Part shown: in pieces, positions 6,544 through 14,872 of the stretch
How positions within the stretch are numbered: the first letter of the stretch is position 1
Layout: each line of letters begins with the position of its first letter
DNA from: Saccharopolyspora montiporae
GTDB lineage: Bacteria; Actinomycetota; Actinomycetes; Mycobacteriales; Pseudonocardiaceae
NCBI RefSeq assembly: GCF_015209505.1
Contig: NZ_JADEYC010000011.1
Location: forward strand, 1-64,000
Reading direction: 5' to 3'
DNA: 64,000 nucleotides
The notes under the pieces: generated by a model
The model's input: only the letters and a program-made list of their open reading frames with translations
The model's database searches: none
Told to the model about the DNA's origin: nothing
Program-made: the position numbers and the translations under genes

Positions 6544-7965
6544 TCAAACGTGGTCTTCTTCGCCCAGCCGGTGCACGCGGATCAGGTTGGTCGACCCGAC
6601 CGTTCCGGGCGGCGAGCCCGCCACGACGACCACCATGTCGCCCCGCTCGGACTTGCCCAACGAGAGCATCGCCTGGTCCACCTGGCGCACCATCTGGTCG
6701 GTCGTGTCCACCTTAGGCACCAGGAACGTCTCTGTCCCCCAGGTGAGAGCGAGCTGACTGCGCACCGATTCCTCGGGGGTGAACGCCAGCAGCGGCACTC
6801 GCGTGTGCAGCCGCGCGAGCCGGCGCACCGTGTCCCCGGACTGCGTGAAGGCCACCAGCGCCTTGGCGTTGAGCCGCTCCCCGATATCGCGGGCGGCGTA
6901 GGAGATCACGCCCCGCTTGGTGCGCGGGACGTGGCTCAGCGGCGGCGGCTGGGTCGAGCCCGCCTCCACGGCTTCCACGATCTTCGCCATCGTCTCGACG
7001 GTCTCCAGCGGGTAGCGCCCCACGCTGGTCTCGCCGGAGAGCATCACGGCGTCCGTGCCGTCCAGCACCGCGTTGGCCACGTCCGAGGTCTCCGCGCGGG
7101 TCGGGCGCGGGCTGCTCATCATCGAGTCCAGCATCTGCGTGGCCACGATCACCGGCTTGGCGTTCTCCCGCGCGATCCGGATGGCCTTCTTCTGCACGAG
7201 CGGGACGTGTTCCAGCGGCAGTTCGACGCCGAGGTCCCCGCGGGCGACCATGACGCCGTCGAAGGCCAGCACGATGGCCTCCAGGTTGTCCACCGCTTCC
7301 GGCTTCTCCAGCTTGGCGATGACCGGCACCCGCCGGCCGACCCGGTCCATGACCTGGTGCACCTGGTCGATGTCGGCCGGGCTGCGCACGAAGGACAGCG
7401 CGATGAAGTCCACACCGAGTTCGAGCGCGAACTCCAGGTCCTCGAAGTCCTTATCGGACAGCGCCGGGACGGAAACGTCCATGCCCGGCAAGGAGATCCC
7501 CTTGTGGTCGGAGACGGTGCCGCCCTCGGTCACCTCGCACACCACGTCGCTGCCCTCGACGGCGGTCACGTTCATCGCGACCCGTCCGTCGTCGACCAGC
7601 AACCGGTCGCCGACCTTCGCGTCTCCGGCCAGTCCCTGGTAAGTGGTGGATACGCGATCGTGCGTTCCCTGCACGTCGTCCACCGTGATCCGCACGACGT
7701 CGCCGGTGCGCCATTCGACCGGACCGGCGGCGAAGGTCCCGAGCCGGATCTTCGGTCCCTGCAGATCACCGAGAACACCGACCGCGCGGCCGGATTCCTT
7801 CGCGGCGTCGCGGACCAGCCCGTAGACCTGCCGGTGGTCGGCGTGGCTGCCGTGGCTGAAGTTCAGCCTGGCGACGTCCATTCCGCTGCTGACGAGCTCG
7901 GCCACCTTCTCCGGAGTGGCGGTGGCGGGGCCCATGGTACAAACGATCTTGGCTCGTCGACTCAC
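6544..7965 (-). CDS. pyk: Pyruvate kinase
   Basis: 473 residues, the usual length. It converts phosphoenolpyruvate and ADP to pyruvate and ATP, the last step of glycolysis. The barrel carries KIVCTMGPAT at the N-terminus, ARLNFSHGSHADH, GDLQGPKIRLG, IAKLEKPEAV and the signature region around MVARGDLGVELP, followed by VIVATQMLDSM. The C-terminal allosteric domain is complete. I choose the GTG at 7965 (protein begins MSRRAKIVCTMGP); an upstream in-frame start at 8019 would add an unconserved 18 residues. A TACGCT hexamer (7979-7974) 8 bases before the GTG and absence of a ribosome site suggest a leaderless transcript. Confidence 0.96.
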   Translation of the reverse strand: MSRRAKIVCTMGPATATPEKVAELVSSGMDVARLNFSHGSHADHRQVYGLVRDAAKESGRAVGVLGDLQGPKIRLGTFAAGPVEWRTGDVVRITVDDVQGTHDRVSTTYQGLAGDAKVGDRLLVDDGRVAMNVTAVEGSDVVCEVTEGGTVSDHKGISLPGMDVSVPALSDKDFEDLEFALELGVDFIALSFVRSPADIDQVHQVMDRVGRRVPVIAKLEKPEAVDNLEAIVLAFDGVMVARGDLGVELPLEHVPLVQKKAIRIARENAKPVIVATQMLDSMMSSPRPTRAETSDVANAVLDGTDAVMLSGETSVGRYPLETVETMAKIVEAVEAGSTQPPPLSHVPRTKRGVISYAARDIGERLNAKALVAFTQSGDTVRRLARLHTRVPLLAFTPEESVRSQLALTWGTETFLVPKVDTTDQMVRQVDQAMLSLGKSERGDMVVVVAGSPPGTVGSTNLIRVHRLGEEDHV

Positions 7966-8040
7966 GTTGTGCCAGCGTAGTCCCCTGTCCGTTTCGCGCA
8001 GCACGCGCCGCCCCCTCATCCGCGCCCACCGGGGAGATCG

Positions 8041-9035: not shown

Positions 9036-9278
9036 GCACCGACGCTATCCGGCCCGGGTCGGAGTCCCGCGGCCCCCACCACCGACGCGCAGACCGCACG
9101 ACCTCCGCGTACGGGATGCTCGCTGCGCGCCGGCGCCGCGCCGGCCGAGCTCACCGCCGAGGACTCCCGCACCCTCACCGGGATCTGACCGCGCTGATCT
9201 GGTGATCCCGCGCACCGCGCACGCCTGCGACGATCACTTTCGCAGGTCAGCGCGGGTACGCAGGGTTACGCTCGAAGC

Positions 9279-11627
9279 GTGGTCTCGACTGCGCGACAAG
9301 CCCGGGTGCGCGAACCCGCGGGCAACCTCCCCGCCGACGTCACCAGCTTCGTCGGTCGCAGGCGCGAGATCACGCTCACCAAGCGGCTGCTGGGCGAGTC
9401 CCGCGTGGTCACGCTGACCGGGCCCGGCGGGGTCGGCAAGACCCGCCTGGCGACGCGGGTCGCGGCCAACATGCGCCGCTCGTTCCGGGACAAGGCCAAG
9501 TGCATCGAACTCGAAGACGTCGAGGACGGTGCCGTGGTGGTCGACGCCGTCATCGAGCAGCTGGGCCTGGGTGGCTCGTCGACCGGCGACCTGAACACCG
9601 TGGTCGACCACCTCAAGGACCGCGAGATGCTGCTGGTCCTGGACAACTGCGAGCACGTGGTTCAGGACGTGGCGCTGCTGGTGGACGCGGTGCTGCGCTG
9701 GTGCCCCGGGGTGCGCGTGCTGGCCACCAGCAGGCAGTCGCTCGGCGTCGCCGGGGAGAGCACCGTGGTGGTGCCCTCGCTGAACGTGCCGGACATCGAG
9801 CACCTGCCCGATCCGGAGTCCTACGAGCAGTACGCCTCGGTCCGGCTCTTCGTGGAGCGCGCCCGGTCCGCTGTGCCCGAGTTCGAGGTGACCCCGGACA
9901 ACGCCGTCGCGCTGATGCGCCTGGTGCACCACCTGGACGGCAACCCGCTGGCCATCGAGCTGGCCGCGGTGCGCCTGCGGTCGCTGTCCCCGCAGCAGCT
10001 GGAGCAGCGGCTGGCCGAGCGCTACGACCTGCTCACCGAGGGACGCCGCGGCGCTCCCGCCCGGCAGCGGACGCTGCGCGCGCTGATCGACTGGAGCTAC
10101 GGGCTCGCCTCGGAGACCGACCGGCTGACCTGGGCCCGGGTGTCGGTGTTCTCCGGCACGTTCGACCTGGCCGCGGCCGAGCACGTGGCGGGCGCCGGGA
10201 TGTCGGAGAGCGAGGTGCTGGGGGCGATGCACTCGCTGGTCGACCAGTCGGTGCTGCTGCGCGAGGAGGAGTCCGGGGAGGTCCGCTACCGGCTGCCGCA
10301 CACGCTGCGCGAGTACGGCCACGACAAGCTGGAGGCGTCCGGGGAGGCCGATGCGGTCCGCGGCAGGCACTGTGCCTGGTTCGCCGATGTCACCGCCCGC
10401 TTCGCCCAGCAGTGGGTGGGTCCGGACCAGGTCGCCTGGGTGAACCGGCTGTCCAGCGACCTGGGCAACCTCCGCGTGGCGCTGCGCACCGCGATCAGCG
10501 ACCGCAGCACCGCCGCGCAGGCGATGCGGATGACCATCGACCTCGGCCAGTACTGGGGGATCCGCGGGCTCAACGGCGAAGCCCGGCATTGGCTGGACGC
10601 GGCACTGACCATCGCGCCGTCCGACGCCGTCGAGCGGGTGGGCGCGCTGCGGGTCAACGCGTGGTTCGCCCTGCTGCAGGGCGATCTGGCCAAGGCACGC
10701 CCGCTGCTGGAGCAGGCCACGGTGCTGGCCACCCAGCGGGCCGACGAGATCGAGCGGACCAAGCTCGCGGTGGTGCGCGGTCTGGTGTCCATGTTCGTCG
10801 GCGAACCGCAGCAGGGCGTGTCGGTGTTGGAAGAGGCCCTGGCCAAGGCGCGCAAGTTCGAGCTGCGCACCGCAGAGATGTTCGCGCTGTTCGCCCTCGG
10901 GCTGCTGCGCAACCAGCTGGGTGATCCGCAGGCGGGACGCGACCTGCTGGGCGAGTGCATCCGGATCACCGGCGAGCTGGGCGAGCAGTTCTGGCGGTCC
11001 TACGCGCTGTGGGCCGCGGCGCAGATCGACCTGGAGAGCGGGGATCTGGACCGCGCCGAACGCCAGGCGAAGAAGGCACTGCGCACGCAGGTGCAGCTGA
11101 GCAACCGGCTGGCGATCGCGTTCGACCTGGACGTGCTGGCCTGGATCGCCGAGGCGCAGGGCAGGCACGAGCGCGCCGCGCGGCTGTTCGGCTGCGCCTC
11201 CGCGGCCTGGGAGATGGTGCGGGCGGCGCCGACCGGGTTCGCCGGGTACGCGGAACGGCACGCCGCGCACGAGCGGCGGGTGCGGCAGGCCATCGGCGAG
11301 GAGGCGTTCGAGGACGCCTTCGAGCGCGGGCGAGAACTGACCCAGCACCAGGCCGCGGACCTGGCGCTGGAGGTCAAGAAGCAGCAGCGGCAGCGCACCG
11401 ACGAGAACGTGCACCCGATGCCGCTGACCCGCCGGGAGCGGCAGATCGCCGAGCTGGTCGCGCAGGGCGGCACCAACAAGGAGATCGCCGAGAACCTGGT
11501 GATCGCCCAGCGCACGGTGGAAGGCCACGTGCAGAACATCCTCACCAAGCTCGACTACTCGTCCCGCGCGCAGATCGCCGGCTGGGTCGCCGCGCAGAAG
11601 GGCGCCGGCGAGACGTCCCCCGCGTGA
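9279..11627 (+). CDS. Large ATP-binding LuxR-family transcriptional regulator
   Basis: 782 residues. An N-terminal P-loop NTPase domain has Walker A GPGGVGKT (48-55) and Walker B LLVLDN (118-123), as in AfsR/MalT-like STAND regulators. Residues from about 370 to 700 are helical repeats of TPR character. A LuxR-type HTH closes the protein (PLTRRERQIAELVAQGGTNK onward, about 713-770). Such proteins switch on promoters after binding ATP and an inducer. GTG start at 9279 is 6 bases after a TACGCT hexamer (9267-9272), with no ribosome site, so the mRNA is probably leaderless. It precedes a cell-wall transglycosylase gene whose leader is rich in inverted repeats; regulation of that gene is possible but unproven. 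Confidence 0.88.
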   Translation: MVSTARQARVREPAGNLPADVTSFVGRRREITLTKRLLGESRVVTLTGPGGVGKTRLATRVAANMRRSFRDKAKCIELEDVEDGAVVVDAVIEQLGLGGSSTGDLNTVVDHLKDREMLLVLDNCEHVVQDVALLVDAVLRWCPGVRVLATSRQSLGVAGESTVVVPSLNVPDIEHLPDPESYEQYASVRLFVERARSAVPEFEVTPDNAVALMRLVHHLDGNPLAIELAAVRLRSLSPQQLEQRLAERYDLLTEGRRGAPARQRTLRALIDWSYGLASETDRLTWARVSVFSGTFDLAAAEHVAGAGMSESEVLGAMHSLVDQSVLLREEESGEVRYRLPHTLREYGHDKLEASGEADAVRGRHCAWFADVTARFAQQWVGPDQVAWVNRLSSDLGNLRVALRTAISDRSTAAQAMRMTIDLGQYWGIRGLNGEARHWLDAALTIAPSDAVERVGALRVNAWFALLQGDLAKARPLLEQATVLATQRADEIERTKLAVVRGLVSMFVGEPQQGVSVLEEALAKARKFELRTAEMFALFALGLLRNQLGDPQAGRDLLGECIRITGELGEQFWRSYALWAAAQIDLESGDLDRAERQAKKALRTQVQLSNRLAIAFDLDVLAWIAEAQGRHERAARLFGCASAAWEMVRAAPTGFAGYAERHAAHERRVRQAIGEEAFEDAFERGRELTQHQAADLALEVKKQQRQRTDENVHPMPLTRRERQIAELVAQGGTNKEIAENLVIAQRTVEGHVQNILTKLDYSSRAQIAGWVAAQKGAGETSPA

Positions 11628-11642
11628 GGCCGCCGCGCGGTC

Positions 11643-11679
11643 CGGCACCGCGCAGGACGGCCCCGGCGAACCGGTGCCG
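11643..11679 (+). terminator. Hairpin after the LuxR-family gene
   Basis: 8-bp inverted repeat (11643-11650 with 11672-11679) beginning 16 bases after the stop codon, with a 21-base GC-rich loop. No T-run. Confidence 0.5.
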
Positions 11680-11698
11680 TCCGAGTCATCCGAATTCC

Positions 11699-11829
11699 GA
11701 TCACACCAGGTGATCACACAGTTGACTACACCCCGTATTCGTCTCGGCTCCGTGGGTACTACCTGGTGCACAATCTAGGTAGTCGACTACGTGGAAACAC
11801 CCATGTCTACGTACGTTCCGTAATGGAAC
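11699..11829 (+). promoter_or_regulatory. Structured leader/operator region before the transglycosylase gene
   Basis: The region contains several overlapping inverted repeats. GATCAC/GTGATC pairs 11699-11704 with 11710-11715. ACTACCT/AGGTAGT pairs 11758-11764 with 11777-11783. A 12-bp perfect palindrome GTAGTCGACTAC lies at 11779-11790. GTTCC/GGAAC pairs 11815-11819 with 11825-11829. Two longer pairings are also possible: 11705-11711 with 11761-11767, and 11721-11729 with 11779-11787 (one G-U). They interlock like a pseudoknot. Whether this is DNA operator or RNA structure cannot be decided here. A possible -10 (TACGTT) is at 11812-11817. Confidence 0.45.
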
Positions 11830-11839
11830 CTAGTCCGCG

Positions 11840-12613
11840 ATGACCCCCGACGAGAATCACTCCCCCGACGACATGGCTCCCTCCACGACCCCCCGCCGCC
11901 GGGAGACCCCGCTCCGCCGGGCGGCGACCTGGGTGAGTTCCAGCTTCGCCGGCGACCGCCAGCGCCGCGTGTCCCCGAAGGCGCGGTCGATCCAGATCGG
12001 TGCCGCCGCGGCCGCCTTCAGCGCCGTCGGCGTGCTCGCCCTGCAGGCCGGACCGGACGGCGAGACCGAAGCCGTGCAGCCCGCCGCGGAGAGCGCAGCG
12101 CTGCCGCAGGCCGCCCCGGCCCCCGGTGCAGGCGACCACGAGCGCAAGGCCGCCGACCACGAACGCGCCAAGCAGGACCACGGCAAGCAGCACCGCGGCG
12201 GCGAGCAGGCCCAGCCGCCGCACGCCGCGCAGGCGCAGGCCGGCCCGGCCAAGGACCAGATCGACACCTGGATCGACCAGGCCGTGACGGCGATCAACCA
12301 GCACGGCGAGACCCAGCTCGACCAGACCGACCACGAAGCCATCCGCACGATCATCGAGAACGAGTCCGCGGGGGATCCCAACGCCAAGAACGACTGGGAC
12401 TCCAACGCCTCGGCGGGCACCCCGTCGATCGGCCTGATGCAGACCATCCAGCCGACGTTCGACTCGTTCGCGCTGCCCGGCCGCGAGGACATCTACGACC
12501 CGGTGGACAACATCGTCGCCGCCACCCTCTACTCGGTGGACCGCTACGGCGGCCCGTCCGAGGTGCCCGGGGTCCAGGGCCTCGACTCGGGAGGCAGCTA
12601 CCAGGGCTACTGA
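11840..12613 (+). CDS. Membrane-anchored lytic transglycosylase (SLT domain)
   Basis: 257 residues. Residues 1-50 are cytoplasmic and basic, about 51-70 form one membrane anchor, and 75-140 are an Ala/Gln/His-rich linker with DHER repeats. The C-terminal 115 residues form a soluble lytic transglycosylase fold: IRTIIENESAGDPNAKN carries the catalytic Glu, and SIGLMQTIQPTFDSFALPG plus DPVDNIVAATLY are the typical SLT motifs. It cleaves the glycan strand of peptidoglycan outside the membrane. ATG at 11840 has only a weak ribosome site. Its upstream region is unusually structured. The gene converges on the GntR gene with a 7-base overlap. Confidence 0.85.
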   Translation: MTPDENHSPDDMAPSTTPRRRETPLRRAATWVSSSFAGDRQRRVSPKARSIQIGAAAAAFSAVGVLALQAGPDGETEAVQPAAESAALPQAAPAPGAGDHERKAADHERAKQDHGKQHRGGEQAQPPHAAQAQAGPAKDQIDTWIDQAVTAINQHGETQLDQTDHEAIRTIIENESAGDPNAKNDWDSNASAGTPSIGLMQTIQPTFDSFALPGREDIYDPVDNIVAATLYSVDRYGGPSEVPGVQGLDSGGSYQGY

Positions 12614-13302
12614 TCCGCGCCCAGCACGGACAACGTCCCCTCCAGGGCCTCCGCGACCAGTTCGCGCATGGCCTCCTCCGCCCGCGCCCGGTCGCCACCG
12701 CGGATGCACTCGGCCACCTCGCAGTGCAACCGCACGGCGACCGGGCGCGGGTGTTCGGGCATCAGCCCGCTGCCCGCCCGCCAGCGCAGGACCTCCTCCA
12801 CCGATTCGTGCAGCTGCCCGAACATGGCGTTGCCCGAGGCGGCCAGCACGGCGTGGTGGAAGTCGACATCGGCGTCCATGAACGCGTCCAGATCGCCGGA
12901 CCGGGCGGTGACCACCATCCGCTCGGACAGCGCCACCAACCGCGCCACGTCGTCGTCCCCGGCGCGGCGCGCCGCCGCGGCGGCTGCCACCGGTTCGATC
13001 GCGGTGCGCAGCTCGGCCAGGCTGGTCAGCTGCCGGGTTCGGTCCGCGGCGAGTTCCCAGCGGATCAGCTTCGGGTCGAACGAGTTCCACTCGGCGCGCG
13101 GCCGGACGACGAACCCGACTCGCTTGCGCCCGAAGACCATCCGGATCGAACCGAGCGTGCGGACCGCCTCCCGGGCCACGCTGCGCGAGATGCCGAACCG
13201 CTGCTCGACCTCCTCGATGCGCAGCACGCCGCCGGCGGGATAGGCGCCCGCGGCGATCTCCCGCCCGAGCACGTCCACGACCTCGTCGTGCAGCCCTGCC
13301 AT
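12607..13302 (-). CDS. GntR-family (FadR/FCD subfamily) repressor, probably of the gluconate permease
   Basis: 231 residues from the ATG at 13302, which has AGGGG 7 bases upstream; an earlier in-frame ATG at 13350 lacks a ribosome site. The winged helix is at the N-terminus (HDEVVDVLGREIAAGAYPAG, then RFGISRSVAREAVRTLGSIRM). The all-helical FCD effector domain follows, with likely metal ligands in DVDFHHAVLAAS and RLHCEVAECI. The gene is divergent from gntP, and repeats in the shared promoter region look like its operator. Gluconate, a gluconate phosphate or a related sugar acid is the likely inducer by analogy. Confidence 0.87.
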   Translation of the reverse strand: MAGLHDEVVDVLGREIAAGAYPAGGVLRIEEVEQRFGISRSVAREAVRTLGSIRMVFGRKRVGFVVRPRAEWNSFDPKLIRWELAADRTRQLTSLAELRTAIEPVAAAAAARRAGDDDVARLVALSERMVVTARSGDLDAFMDADVDFHHAVLAASGNAMFGQLHESVEEVLRWRAGSGLMPEHPRPVAVRLHCEVAECIRGGDRARAEEAMRELVAEALEGTLSVLGADQ

Positions 13303-13408
13303 GAACGCACCCCTTCGTGCCGGTCCCGCCGGTGCATCGCCACCGAACATCCAACCCTAGGGCGCCGGTCCGGGTGACCGGGGTTACAAATCTACTTAAT
13401 CGGTCAGG

Positions 13409-13440
13409 GTGACAATAAAGTCATACTTTTGACCTAGGCT
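13409..13440 (+). promoter_or_regulatory. gntP promoter with GntR-type operator
   Basis: A TAGGCT -10 (13435-13440) is preceded by GTGACA (13409-13414) at a long 20-base spacing. Inside the spacer lies the inverted repeat AAAGT-CAT-ACTTT (13417-13429). TGAC/GTCA half-sites at 13410-13413, 13420-13423 and 13430-13433 repeat at ten-base spacing. A repressor bound here would block RNA polymerase. The region 13303-13477 otherwise holds no gene. Confidence 0.55.
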
Positions 13441-13477
13441 GTGCTCGCCCCAGCTCAACGAGGAGCCGAAAAGAGCC

Positions 13478-14872
13478 ATGCCGCACACCCTGACGACCGC
13501 GCTCGCCGCCTCGGCGTGGAGCGCGCACGACACCCGGCTGCTGTTCGCGACCCTCGCGGGCATCGCCGTGATCGTCCTGCTGATCAGCTGGGCGAAGCTG
13601 CATCCGTTCCTCTCGCTGGCCCTCGGCGCAGGCACGCTCGGCGTCGTCGCCGGGATGCCGTTCGGCGACCTGGTGGAGACGTTCACCGAAGGCGTCGGCG
13701 CCACGATCGGCGATGTCGGTCTGCTCGTGGCCCTCGGCGCCATGCTGGGCAAACTGCTCACCGACTCCGGCGGCGCCGAGCAGGTGGTGCAGACCGTCCT
13801 GCGCAGAACCACGGACCGCACGCTGCCCTGGGCGATGGTGTTCATCGCGGCGCTGCTCGGCCTGCCGATGTTCTTCGAGGTCGGCGTGGTGCTGCTGGTG
13901 CCCATCGTGGTCATGGTGGCCGGGCGCGCCCAGCAGCCGGTGCTGCGCATCGGGATCCCCGCGCTGGCCGGTCTGTCCATCCTGCACGGGCTGGTCCCGC
14001 CGCACCCCGGCCCGCTCGCGGCCGTGGACGCGCTGGGCGTGGACCTCGGCCTGACGCTGGCGCTGGGCGTGCTGGTGTCCATCCCCACCGCGATCATCGC
14101 CGGACCGCTGTTCGGCTCGTTCATCGCGCCCCGCGTCCCGCTGCCCGCGGCGGAGAAGCTGCTCGGCGACCAGCGGCCGTCCGCGGACGGCGACGAGAAC
14201 GCCCGGCGGCCCGCGTTCTGGACCTCGGTGGCGATGCTGCTGCTGCCCGTGGTGCTCATGCTGGGCAAGTCGGTGGCCGATCTGGTGCTCACCGAGGGGA
14301 CCGCCGCCTACGGGTTCCTGGACACGATCGGCACCCCGGTCGTGGCGCTGATGCTGACCGTGCTGGTGGCGATCGTCGTGCTCGGCCGCGGCGCCGGGCT
14401 CAGCCGCGGCCGGCTCTCGGACATCGTCGGCGGCGCGCTGCCCACCATCGCCGGGATCATCCTCATCGTCGGCGCGGGCGGCGGGTTCAAGGAGACCCTG
14501 GTCGAATCCGGCGTGAACGGCATGATCACCGACCTGGCCGAGGGGGCGAACCTGTCCCCGCTGCTGCTGGGCTGGCTGATCGCGGTCGGCATCCGGGTGG
14601 CCACCGGTTCGGCCACCGTGGCCACGATCTCGGCGGCGGGCATGGTCGTCCCGCTGGTGGCCGACCTCGATCCGGCGCAGGGCGCGCTGGTGGCCCTGGC
14701 CATCGGCTCCGGCTCGCTGTTCCTGTCGCACGTCAACGACGCCGGGTTCTGGCTGGTCAAGGAGTACTTCGGCATGACCGTCGGGCAGACGCTCAAGACC
14801 TGGTCCGTGCTGGAGACCCTGCTGTCGGTGGTGTCGTTCGCGGTGATCCTGTTGATCAGCGCGCTGCTGTAG
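13478..14872 (+). CDS. gntP: GntP-family gluconate:proton symporter
   Basis: 464 residues with about 12 to 14 hydrophobic segments, full length for the GntP family. Typical features are LLISWAKLHPFLSLALGAG near the N-terminus, GLPMFFEVGVVLLVPI near residue 130, the HGLVPPHPGPLAA loop and the ATGSATVATISAAGM plus SHVNDAGFWLVKEYF blocks near the C-terminus. It imports gluconate or a related sugar acid. No gluconate kinase gene is next to it, so phosphorylation must be encoded elsewhere. The ATG has GAGGAG 12 bases upstream. It is divergent from the GntR repressor gene. Confidence 0.9.
   Translation: MPHTLTTALAASAWSAHDTRLLFATLAGIAVIVLLISWAKLHPFLSLALGAGTLGVVAGMPFGDLVETFTEGVGATIGDVGLLVALGAMLGKLLTDSGGAEQVVQTVLRRTTDRTLPWAMVFIAALLGLPMFFEVGVVLLVPIVVMVAGRAQQPVLRIGIPALAGLSILHGLVPPHPGPLAAVDALGVDLGLTLALGVLVSIPTAIIAGPLFGSFIAPRVPLPAAEKLLGDQRPSADGDENARRPAFWTSVAMLLLPVVLMLGKSVADLVLTEGTAAYGFLDTIGTPVVALMLTVLVAIVVLGRGAGLSRGRLSDIVGGALPTIAGIILIVGAGGGFKETLVESGVNGMITDLAEGANLSPLLLGWLIAVGIRVATGSATVATISAAGMVVPLVADLDPAQGALVALAIGSGSLFLSHVNDAGFWLVKEYFGMTVGQTLKTWSVLETLLSVVSFAVILLISALL

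Follow-up and report, generated by a model that had tools for sequence, protein, structure and literature searches.

The region between a gene for a LuxR-family regulator and a lytic transglycosylase gene of Saccharopolyspora montiporae (11699–11829) is filled with interlocking repeats, which raises the question of whether it acts as a folded RNA or is read as DNA by proteins. A preliminary description made from the letters of the DNA had considered both a riboswitch-like RNA with a pseudoknot and a dense operator, in which the LuxR-family protein binds the palindromes. The window, i.e. the whole stretch of DNA that was analyzed, comprises 64 kb of a genome of 4.16 Mb (G000). The genes around the region are:

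9279–11627, forward strand: STAND-LuxR gene, candidate cognate regulator (782 amino acids; NB-ARC, TPR and LuxR/GerE DNA-binding domains)
11840–12613, forward strand: SLT gene, putatively under control of the region (257 amino acids; lytic transglycosylase domain PF01464, E 3.2e-11 in Pfam)
12607–13350, reverse strand: GntR/FCD regulator gene (domain match)

The product of 9279–11627 belongs to the STAND/LuxR class, as it combines an NB-ARC/STAND NTPase domain (PF00931, E 6.2e-7) with a TPR domain (PF13424, E 4.2e-9) and a C-terminal LuxR helix-turn-helix domain (PF00196, E 1e-17; all Pfam). Further upstream, positions 6544–8019 are occupied by a pyruvate kinase gene (pyk). The GntR/FCD gene is divergent from a gene for a large hydrophobic protein (12607–14872 for both), which on reading is a candidate permease, of the gluconate type by appearance. 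A simple scan of 11500–12000 for sigma-70 promoters and terminators returned nothing.

When the sequence of 11699–11829 was read directly, every pairing that the preliminary description had named was present:

11758–11764 with 11777–11783: helix ACTACCT/AGGTAGT
11705–11711 with 11761–11767: helix ACCAGGT/ACCTGGT
11721–11729 with 11779–11787: helix GTTGACTAC/GTAGTCGAC, which needs one G-U pair
11779–11790: palindrome GTAGTCGACTAC

Each test of how far these pairings exceed chance used 300 dinucleotide shuffles. Watson-Crick helices of the region reach at most 8 bp, a length equalled in 50 of the 300 shuffles, and 51 contained at least as many Watson-Crick helices of 7 bp or more as the region, which has two. 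With G-U pairs allowed, the numbers of helices of at least 6 and at least 7 bp were ordinary (106 and 87 of 300 shuffles as high). The number of helices of at least 8 bp was high, since six occur and only 4 of 300 shuffles reached this count. The predicted fold of 11690–11845 has a z-score of -1.31, and 23 of 200 shuffles folded as well or better.

Conservation of the pairings was followed through the genus. The SLT protein has a match in all 22 Saccharopolyspora genomes, and the upstream region was readable in 20 of them, giving an alignment with two gap columns in which 37 of 145 columns are invariant. In G004 and G013 the orthologous genes are cut by contig ends, and their copies were recovered with a sequence model. 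The helix ACTACCT/AGGTAGT is paired in 36% of the cells of 20 genus orthologs compared to 37% after shuffling. ACCAGGT/ACCTGGT, with all seven pairs present in the window, is paired in 52 of 147 cells of the other 21 orthologs, which is about chance. For GTTGACTAC/GTAGTCGAC 51% of the cells in 20 orthologs are paired versus 45% after shuffling (1 of 500 shuffles as high; covariation score reached by 7 of 500), and for the palindrome GTAGTCGACTAC 69% versus 59% (0 of 500 as high), but these shuffle counts are not probabilities because the ortholog rows are related. Just two of the nine pairs of GTTGACTAC/GTAGTCGAC hold throughout the orthologs, both nearly invariant, and only 33 of 72 distinct copies retain the full GTA-N6-TAC of the palindrome. 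As it has no loop, this partly kept palindrome is more in keeping with a weak DNA dyad than with a fold. The pairings named at the outset exist, and with G-U pairs allowed the region is unusually rich in helices of at least 8 bp, but most of the named pairings are within chance and at best half kept among the orthologs.

The region is nevertheless a real conserved cis-element, of roughly 115 bases and other than the one initially described. A first search model that used sequence only was built from 23 copies and run on the 22 genomes of the genus, where matches with E from 0.03 to 1 are left out of the counts. Each of the 22 genomes carries the copy before the SLT gene and a second strong copy elsewhere, located before a gene for a GH25 muramidase; in the genome of the window this is G000:C14:105360-105454 (E 1.4e-17 with the 23-copy model). 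G002 and G016 harbor a third copy, likewise before a GH25 gene. The GH25 assignment is based on PF01183 matches for all 11 proteins tested, which come from seven genera (Pfam), and on a sequence-motif check for the remaining ones.

A larger model, built from 63 copies, detected the element in 40 of 259 genomes of the family, distributed over 7 of 46 genera. The six related genera contribute 22 genomes, in which the element precedes GH25, SLT or SLT_2 genes. Outside the genus Saccharopolyspora it lies before 22 GH25 genes, eight SLT genes, two SLT_2 genes (PF13406; two genera) and one frame of 136 amino acids without a Pfam match. This last copy (L202, G034:C1:4704226-4704310) is a partial third copy. 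Another SLT-type copy, L188 in G253, is followed only by a frame of 103 amino acids, perhaps due to a frameshift, and its label was taken from the N-terminus. Altogether 79 copies were collected, 30 before SLT, 46 before GH25, two before SLT_2 genes and one before a frame of unknown type. In a sample of 100 genomes of the family, searched with a smaller model, 49 matched at E ≤0.1; 34 of these were weak (E ≥0.002) and not counted, and the same 34 genomes give no match below 0.001 with the 63-copy model. With the 63-copy model, a search of 150 genomes at the level of the order identified four with the element, of which only one lies outside the family, with a weak match (E 0.006). As far as searched, the element is limited to Saccharopolyspora and the six related genera. 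No title or abstract opening found in the literature describes it.

Within the genus, the copies before SLT genes (20) and before GH25 genes (22) share an identity of 0.91 in the block of the -10-like hexamer and AGGTA and of 0.67–0.69 in the leader. Identity amounts to 0.40 in the upstream box, 0.49 before the -10-like hexamer and 0.52 before the start codon; flank and spacer reach 27% and 29%, respectively. The SLT and GH25 proteins of the window genome have no significant BLASTP match to each other. Conservation of the element is therefore not a by-product of protein similarity, given the high identity of the block. The SLT copy of the window is the weakest of the genus copies listed with the 63-copy model (E 1.6e-11, whereas its GH25 counterpart in this genome has 1.7e-22). 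In genes that carry the element, the first codons form repeats around CCCCGA, mostly encoding P-E or P-D (11844–11853 and 11862–11871 in the window), and these early codons are common to the element genes although the enzyme families differ.

In all these copies, which stand before SLT, GH25 and, in two genera, SLT_2 genes, a single element with nearly constant spacing is recognizable. It was numbered from the TAGGTA at position 11776 of the window and comprises the following parts:

11701–11713, no strand assigned: TCACACCAGGTGA, an inverted repeat of 13 bp without mismatch, agreeing with the BldD-box consensus TNAC-N5-GTNA at six of six positions
11726–11738, no strand assigned: CTACACCCCGTAT, the box at the conserved position, with the core AC-N5-GT and four of six consensus positions in the window
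11771–11776, forward strand: CAATCT, a -10-like hexamer, mostly NAANCT in the copies, the last base being T in 68 of 79 and C in 11 of 79
11777–11781, forward strand: AGGTA, the most conserved part, with GGTA in 79 of 79 copies
11791–11793, forward strand: GTG, the second island (GTR), located 12 bp downstream of the GT in AGGTA
11798–11805, forward strand: CACCCATG, the third island (consensus CC-N3-RTG), from which the window departs at the second C
11813–11821, forward strand: ACGTTCCGT, AC-N5-GT, a short inverted repeat directly ahead of the ribosome-binding region, which may be a hairpin or an operator
11815–11829, forward strand: GTTCC-GTAAT-GGAAC, a 5-bp hairpin that includes GGA at 11825–11827, a conserved SD-like triplet

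The islands GTR, CC and RTG keep fixed distances among the copies. A GTG or ATG start codon follows TAGGTA at a distance of 64 nt in 49 copies, 63 nt in 14, 65 nt in 13 and 62 nt in two. These are 78 of the 79 copies, and L152 is the sole copy without a start codon at the usual distance. CAATCT probably represents a -10 element, and the conserved leader extends about 58 nt downstream of it. An alternative assignment, in which AANCTAGGTA serves a non-housekeeping sigma factor as its -35-type element and the transcript begins some 25–35 nt further downstream, could explain why the -10 hexamer is imperfect, with C as the last base in 11 of 79 copies, and why no conserved -35 was seen at the proper distance in the alignments; the inner positions of the hexamer also contain conserved A and C. 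This assignment is very unlikely, because no second block with a recognized -10 motif was identified and the GTR and CC islands, although fixed in spacing, are not known to match a sigma consensus.

The RTG of the third island, present in 66 of 79 copies, could also be a start codon, from which an upstream peptide is translated that attenuates the main gene. In the window, the ATG at 11803–11805 opens a frame MSTYVP-stop (11803–11823). The distance to the main start codon varies from 62 to 65 nt, so that the frame relation is not kept, RTG is missing in 13 of 79 copies, and no excess of substitutions at third positions was visible by eye. The peptide was set aside on grounds of frame and codon pattern, and we give it hardly any credence.

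A regulatory RNA was the first reading proposed for the region, and several properties of the leader agree with a structured RNA, be it a riboswitch, a thermosensor or a protein-bound leader. In such an RNA, translation would be controlled by a hairpin that contains the SD-like GGAG or lies beside it. Conservation of the leader reaches as far as the start codon, its length is nearly fixed, and the single leaders fold with a mean z-score of -0.75 (68 leaders). Many GH25 leaders of the genus can pair CACGCTCC with GGAGTGTG around the SD sequence, and L149, L151 and L152 from g6 and g14 keep other inverted repeats just before GGGAG or GGGAA. The helix GTTGACTAC/GTAGTCGAC and the palindrome also exceed nearly all shuffles among the orthologs, as shown above. 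However, the helices of the single copies use different registers, and RNAalifold returned 0 pairs on 63 copies. On 20 orthologs it returned 10 pairs with 0 compensatory changes, and the small hairpin at 11815–11829 shows one compensatory cell. The covariation check on relatives suggested in the preliminary description was carried out on 71 distinct copies with an own script instead of R-scape, using a G statistic with APC and a null in which the inferred substitutions are shuffled on a FastTree tree. It yielded no significant column pair beyond the tree null (best E about 6). The columns averaged about 7.7 substitutions, but the invariant islands had hardly any, so that this test cannot judge them. 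Neither RNAalifold nor the tree-null test nor the pair counts revealed compensatory changes in support of a common fold. Moreover, if the -10 element is correctly placed, AGGTA, the most conserved part, is not or hardly transcribed.

Comparison to known RNA families gave the same picture. Neither the 64-kb window nor twelve further loci contained a match to any Rfam family at the gathering score. At looser thresholds, 11620–11900 produced only two matches at chance level (E 6.8 and 7.4), and four orthologous loci produced seven sub-threshold matches, all outside the element (best E 0.001). The element resembles the c-di-AMP (ydaO/yuaA) riboswitch in its position before actinobacterial wall-hydrolase genes. 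It differs in that the Rfam covariance model does not match at the gathering score, no conserved structure was detected and the leader is only about 58 nt long. The preliminary description had not seen the c-di-AMP consensus either. With two of the proposed helices at chance level in the orthologs, the third half kept, and neither a common fold nor covariation nor an Rfam family detected, the pseudoknot is not supported. A riboswitch is not supported either and was dropped as the leading reading on the basis of Rfam, RNAalifold, pair counts and tree-null covariation; a structured leader in the broader sense appears improbable. What the copies share is sequence, whereas a secondary structure common to them was not detected. 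We infer that the element is read as DNA by proteins rather than as a folded RNA. A search for DNA dyads at the core found the best centers at z-scores of 3.7, 3.5 and 3.4 versus other centers, within a block that is conserved anyway, and the third of them is the palindrome GTAGTCGACTAC; we place no weight on these centers.

Several proteins are candidates for binding it. About 50 bp upstream of TAGGTA, at positions 11–13 of the 62 bases preceding it, lies a box with the consensus TCAC-N5-GTGA. Compared to TNAC-N5-GTNA, at least four of six positions are matched in 74 of 79 copies and at least five in 66, comprising 40 with exactly five and 26 with all six. Single-base shuffles match at six of six positions in 0.08%, a frequency to be read with the copies being related and not independent. 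The perfect repeat TCACACCAGGTGA sits 25 bp upstream of the box position in relatives, and may for this reason be a displaced copy of the box. It includes 11705–11711, one arm of the pseudoknot proposed initially.

In Streptomyces, BldD boxes follow TNAC(N)5GTNA (PMC4151990), and most copies show this consensus at their upstream box. For this reason BldD, a c-di-GMP effector, is the main competitor for the role of the binding protein. It would bind TCAC-N5-GTGA as in any promoter of its regulon, with the LuxR gene as a mere neighbor and the leader serving initiation and translation. The perfect box at 11701–11713 of the window adds to this possibility, while the window box at the conserved position matches only four of six positions. 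In contrast to BldD boxes, a single box stands here at a fixed place in a larger element, of which the AGGTA core and the leader are no part of a BldD site. The response regulator MtrA could play the same role with less likelihood. In mycobacteria it binds the wall-hydrolase genes rpf and ripA, as stated in PMC6265350, so that the targets are of the same kind as here, and GTNAC-like half sites occur in the element. However, the MtrA motif given there is a 9-nt direct repeat with 2-nt spacing (motif also in PMC5650626). No degenerate GTNAC direct repeat with this 11-bp period was found; the half sites of the copies are 10 bp apart and the first is degenerate. MtrA fits less well than BldD because of this half-site spacing. 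The strongest constraint rests on AGGTA and the leader and not on the box. Furthermore, BldD and MtrA are widespread, whereas the element was found in no more than 7 of the family's 46 genera. Control by BldD or MtrA is therefore possible but doubtful.

The distribution of the element coincides with that of the STAND-LuxR regulator. In the sample of 100 genomes of the family, in which only the ten best candidates per genome were scored, LuxR orthologs with at least 55% identity were found in 15, exactly the 15 genomes with the element at E <0.001. The next LuxR homologue shows 51% identity and belongs to a genome without the element. A recognition-helix string, RTVEGHVQ, is identical in all 19 LuxR orthologs read and absent in all five non-orthologs. 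The pyruvate kinase and LuxR genes are about 0.4–4.5 kb apart in 14 of the 15 element genomes of this sample, and on different contigs in G016; this kept proximity supports the orthology of the LuxR genes. In an unrooted pyk tree of the 30 best-matching loci, the 15 element genomes fall on one side with a support of 100/99. As the seven genera group together in this tree, the co-occurrence counts as one origin, and element and regulator may each go back to a single event in one common ancestor. Their co-occurrence hints at a functional link but does not prove it.

The LuxR gene is the immediate upstream neighbor of the SLT copy, in the same orientation, in 22 of 22 genomes of the genus and in the g13 and g46 genomes read, and next upstream of the SLT_2 gene bearing the element in g6 and g14 (one genome each). 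It adjoins a copy of the element in five of the seven genera. This adjacency is not independent evidence, because the pyk, LuxR and SLT genes are passed on together as one neighborhood. The LuxR gene adjoins no element in the two g35 and three g38 genomes read, where the GH25 copy was the only one found. Regulator and GH25 element are both kept there though they lie apart, as expected for action in trans. At the g38 loci L221–L223 a GntR-like stretch directly follows the LuxR gene on reading, as if the SLT gene had been lost.

The proposal that the LuxR-family protein binds this region as DNA gains from the finding of a conserved element common to hydrolase genes and from the co-occurrence, but of the palindromes originally named only GTAGTCGACTAC is partly kept, and the co-occurrence has a single origin. 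Auto-regulation by the same element was rejected, since none of the 14 readable regions before LuxR genes contains the TAGGTA core; a GGGTA string occurs elsewhere in three of them. A fifteenth sequence, L205, starts within the gene and was left out. A separate conserved sequence, CAGGTCAG ... GGGTTAAGCTCGGG ... GTG, precedes the LuxR-STAND gene at about 9230–9279 and in most of the genus orthologs compared. Its start codon follows a -10-like TTAAGCT after about 6 nt, which suggests a leaderless transcript. At other wall-hydrolase genes of the family (L050, L055, L058 and L060) a different upstream pattern common to them was noticed by eye, roughly GATCTGTGTT ... ACACC ... GTGA ... TTCGTAA-CTC, which is possibly a second regulon.

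From the sequence comparisons taken together, the element would be the composite promoter and operator of a small peptidoglycan-hydrolase regulon of the Saccharopolyspora clade, most likely read by the neighboring STAND-LuxR protein, a reading to which we assign a probability of about 0.5. The promoter would consist of the upstream box, the -10 element, the start-site core and a conserved leader of nearly fixed length. The STAND-LuxR protein would bind the AGGTA-N9-GTR core, the TCAC-N5-GTGA box or both, and thereby switch the hydrolase genes together. The trigger may be an envelope or peptidoglycan signal sensed by the STAND/TPR part, and the leader before the start codon, with its AC-N5-GT repeat and GGA, could set the efficiency of translation. 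Besides the single origin and the inherited neighborhood, several observations weigh against this reading: the consensus of BldD suits the upstream box no less than any LuxR site would, the roughly 58 conserved nucleotides downstream of the -10 element exceed the need of one operator, no dyad or repeat clearly defines a site for a LuxR dimer, and the window's own copy is the weakest one listed for the genus.

A similar arrangement is known from the mycobacterial IniR-iniBAC system, in which envelope genes are controlled by a large regulatory NTPase that carries a LuxR-type DNA-binding domain at its C-terminus. IniR is described as a signal-transduction ATPase/LuxR-type regulator of the cell-envelope stress promoter iniBAC (PMC5760070). 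The regulator of the window is not a member of this family by the NCBIfam IniR model, which matches it in the DNA-binding domain only, with 26.4 bits at a cut-off of 750. The targets also differ, being peptidoglycan hydrolases here, and conservation of the element spans the leader in full.

Peptidoglycan hydrolases are dangerous to the cell that produces them, and their control in filamentous actinomycetes is, in our judgement, poorly mapped. As a more speculative extension, which we consider unlikely in this complete form, the locus could encode a self-contained circuit of peptidoglycan homeostasis. A NOD-like (STAND) LuxR protein would sense a wall fragment or wall stress and switch muramidase and lytic transglycosylase via a composite operator reaching from about -60 to the start codon, combining DNA binding with control at the level of the leader. 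If true, this would be a regulator-element pair of the Saccharopolyspora clade. The case also cautions against taking strong conservation of a leader beside wall-hydrolase genes as the mark of a riboswitch. Through the element, a transglycosylase and a muramidase are linked to one type of control region that has a candidate regulator, and the genes may represent a new wall-homeostasis regulon in a non-pathogenic genus of industrial importance.
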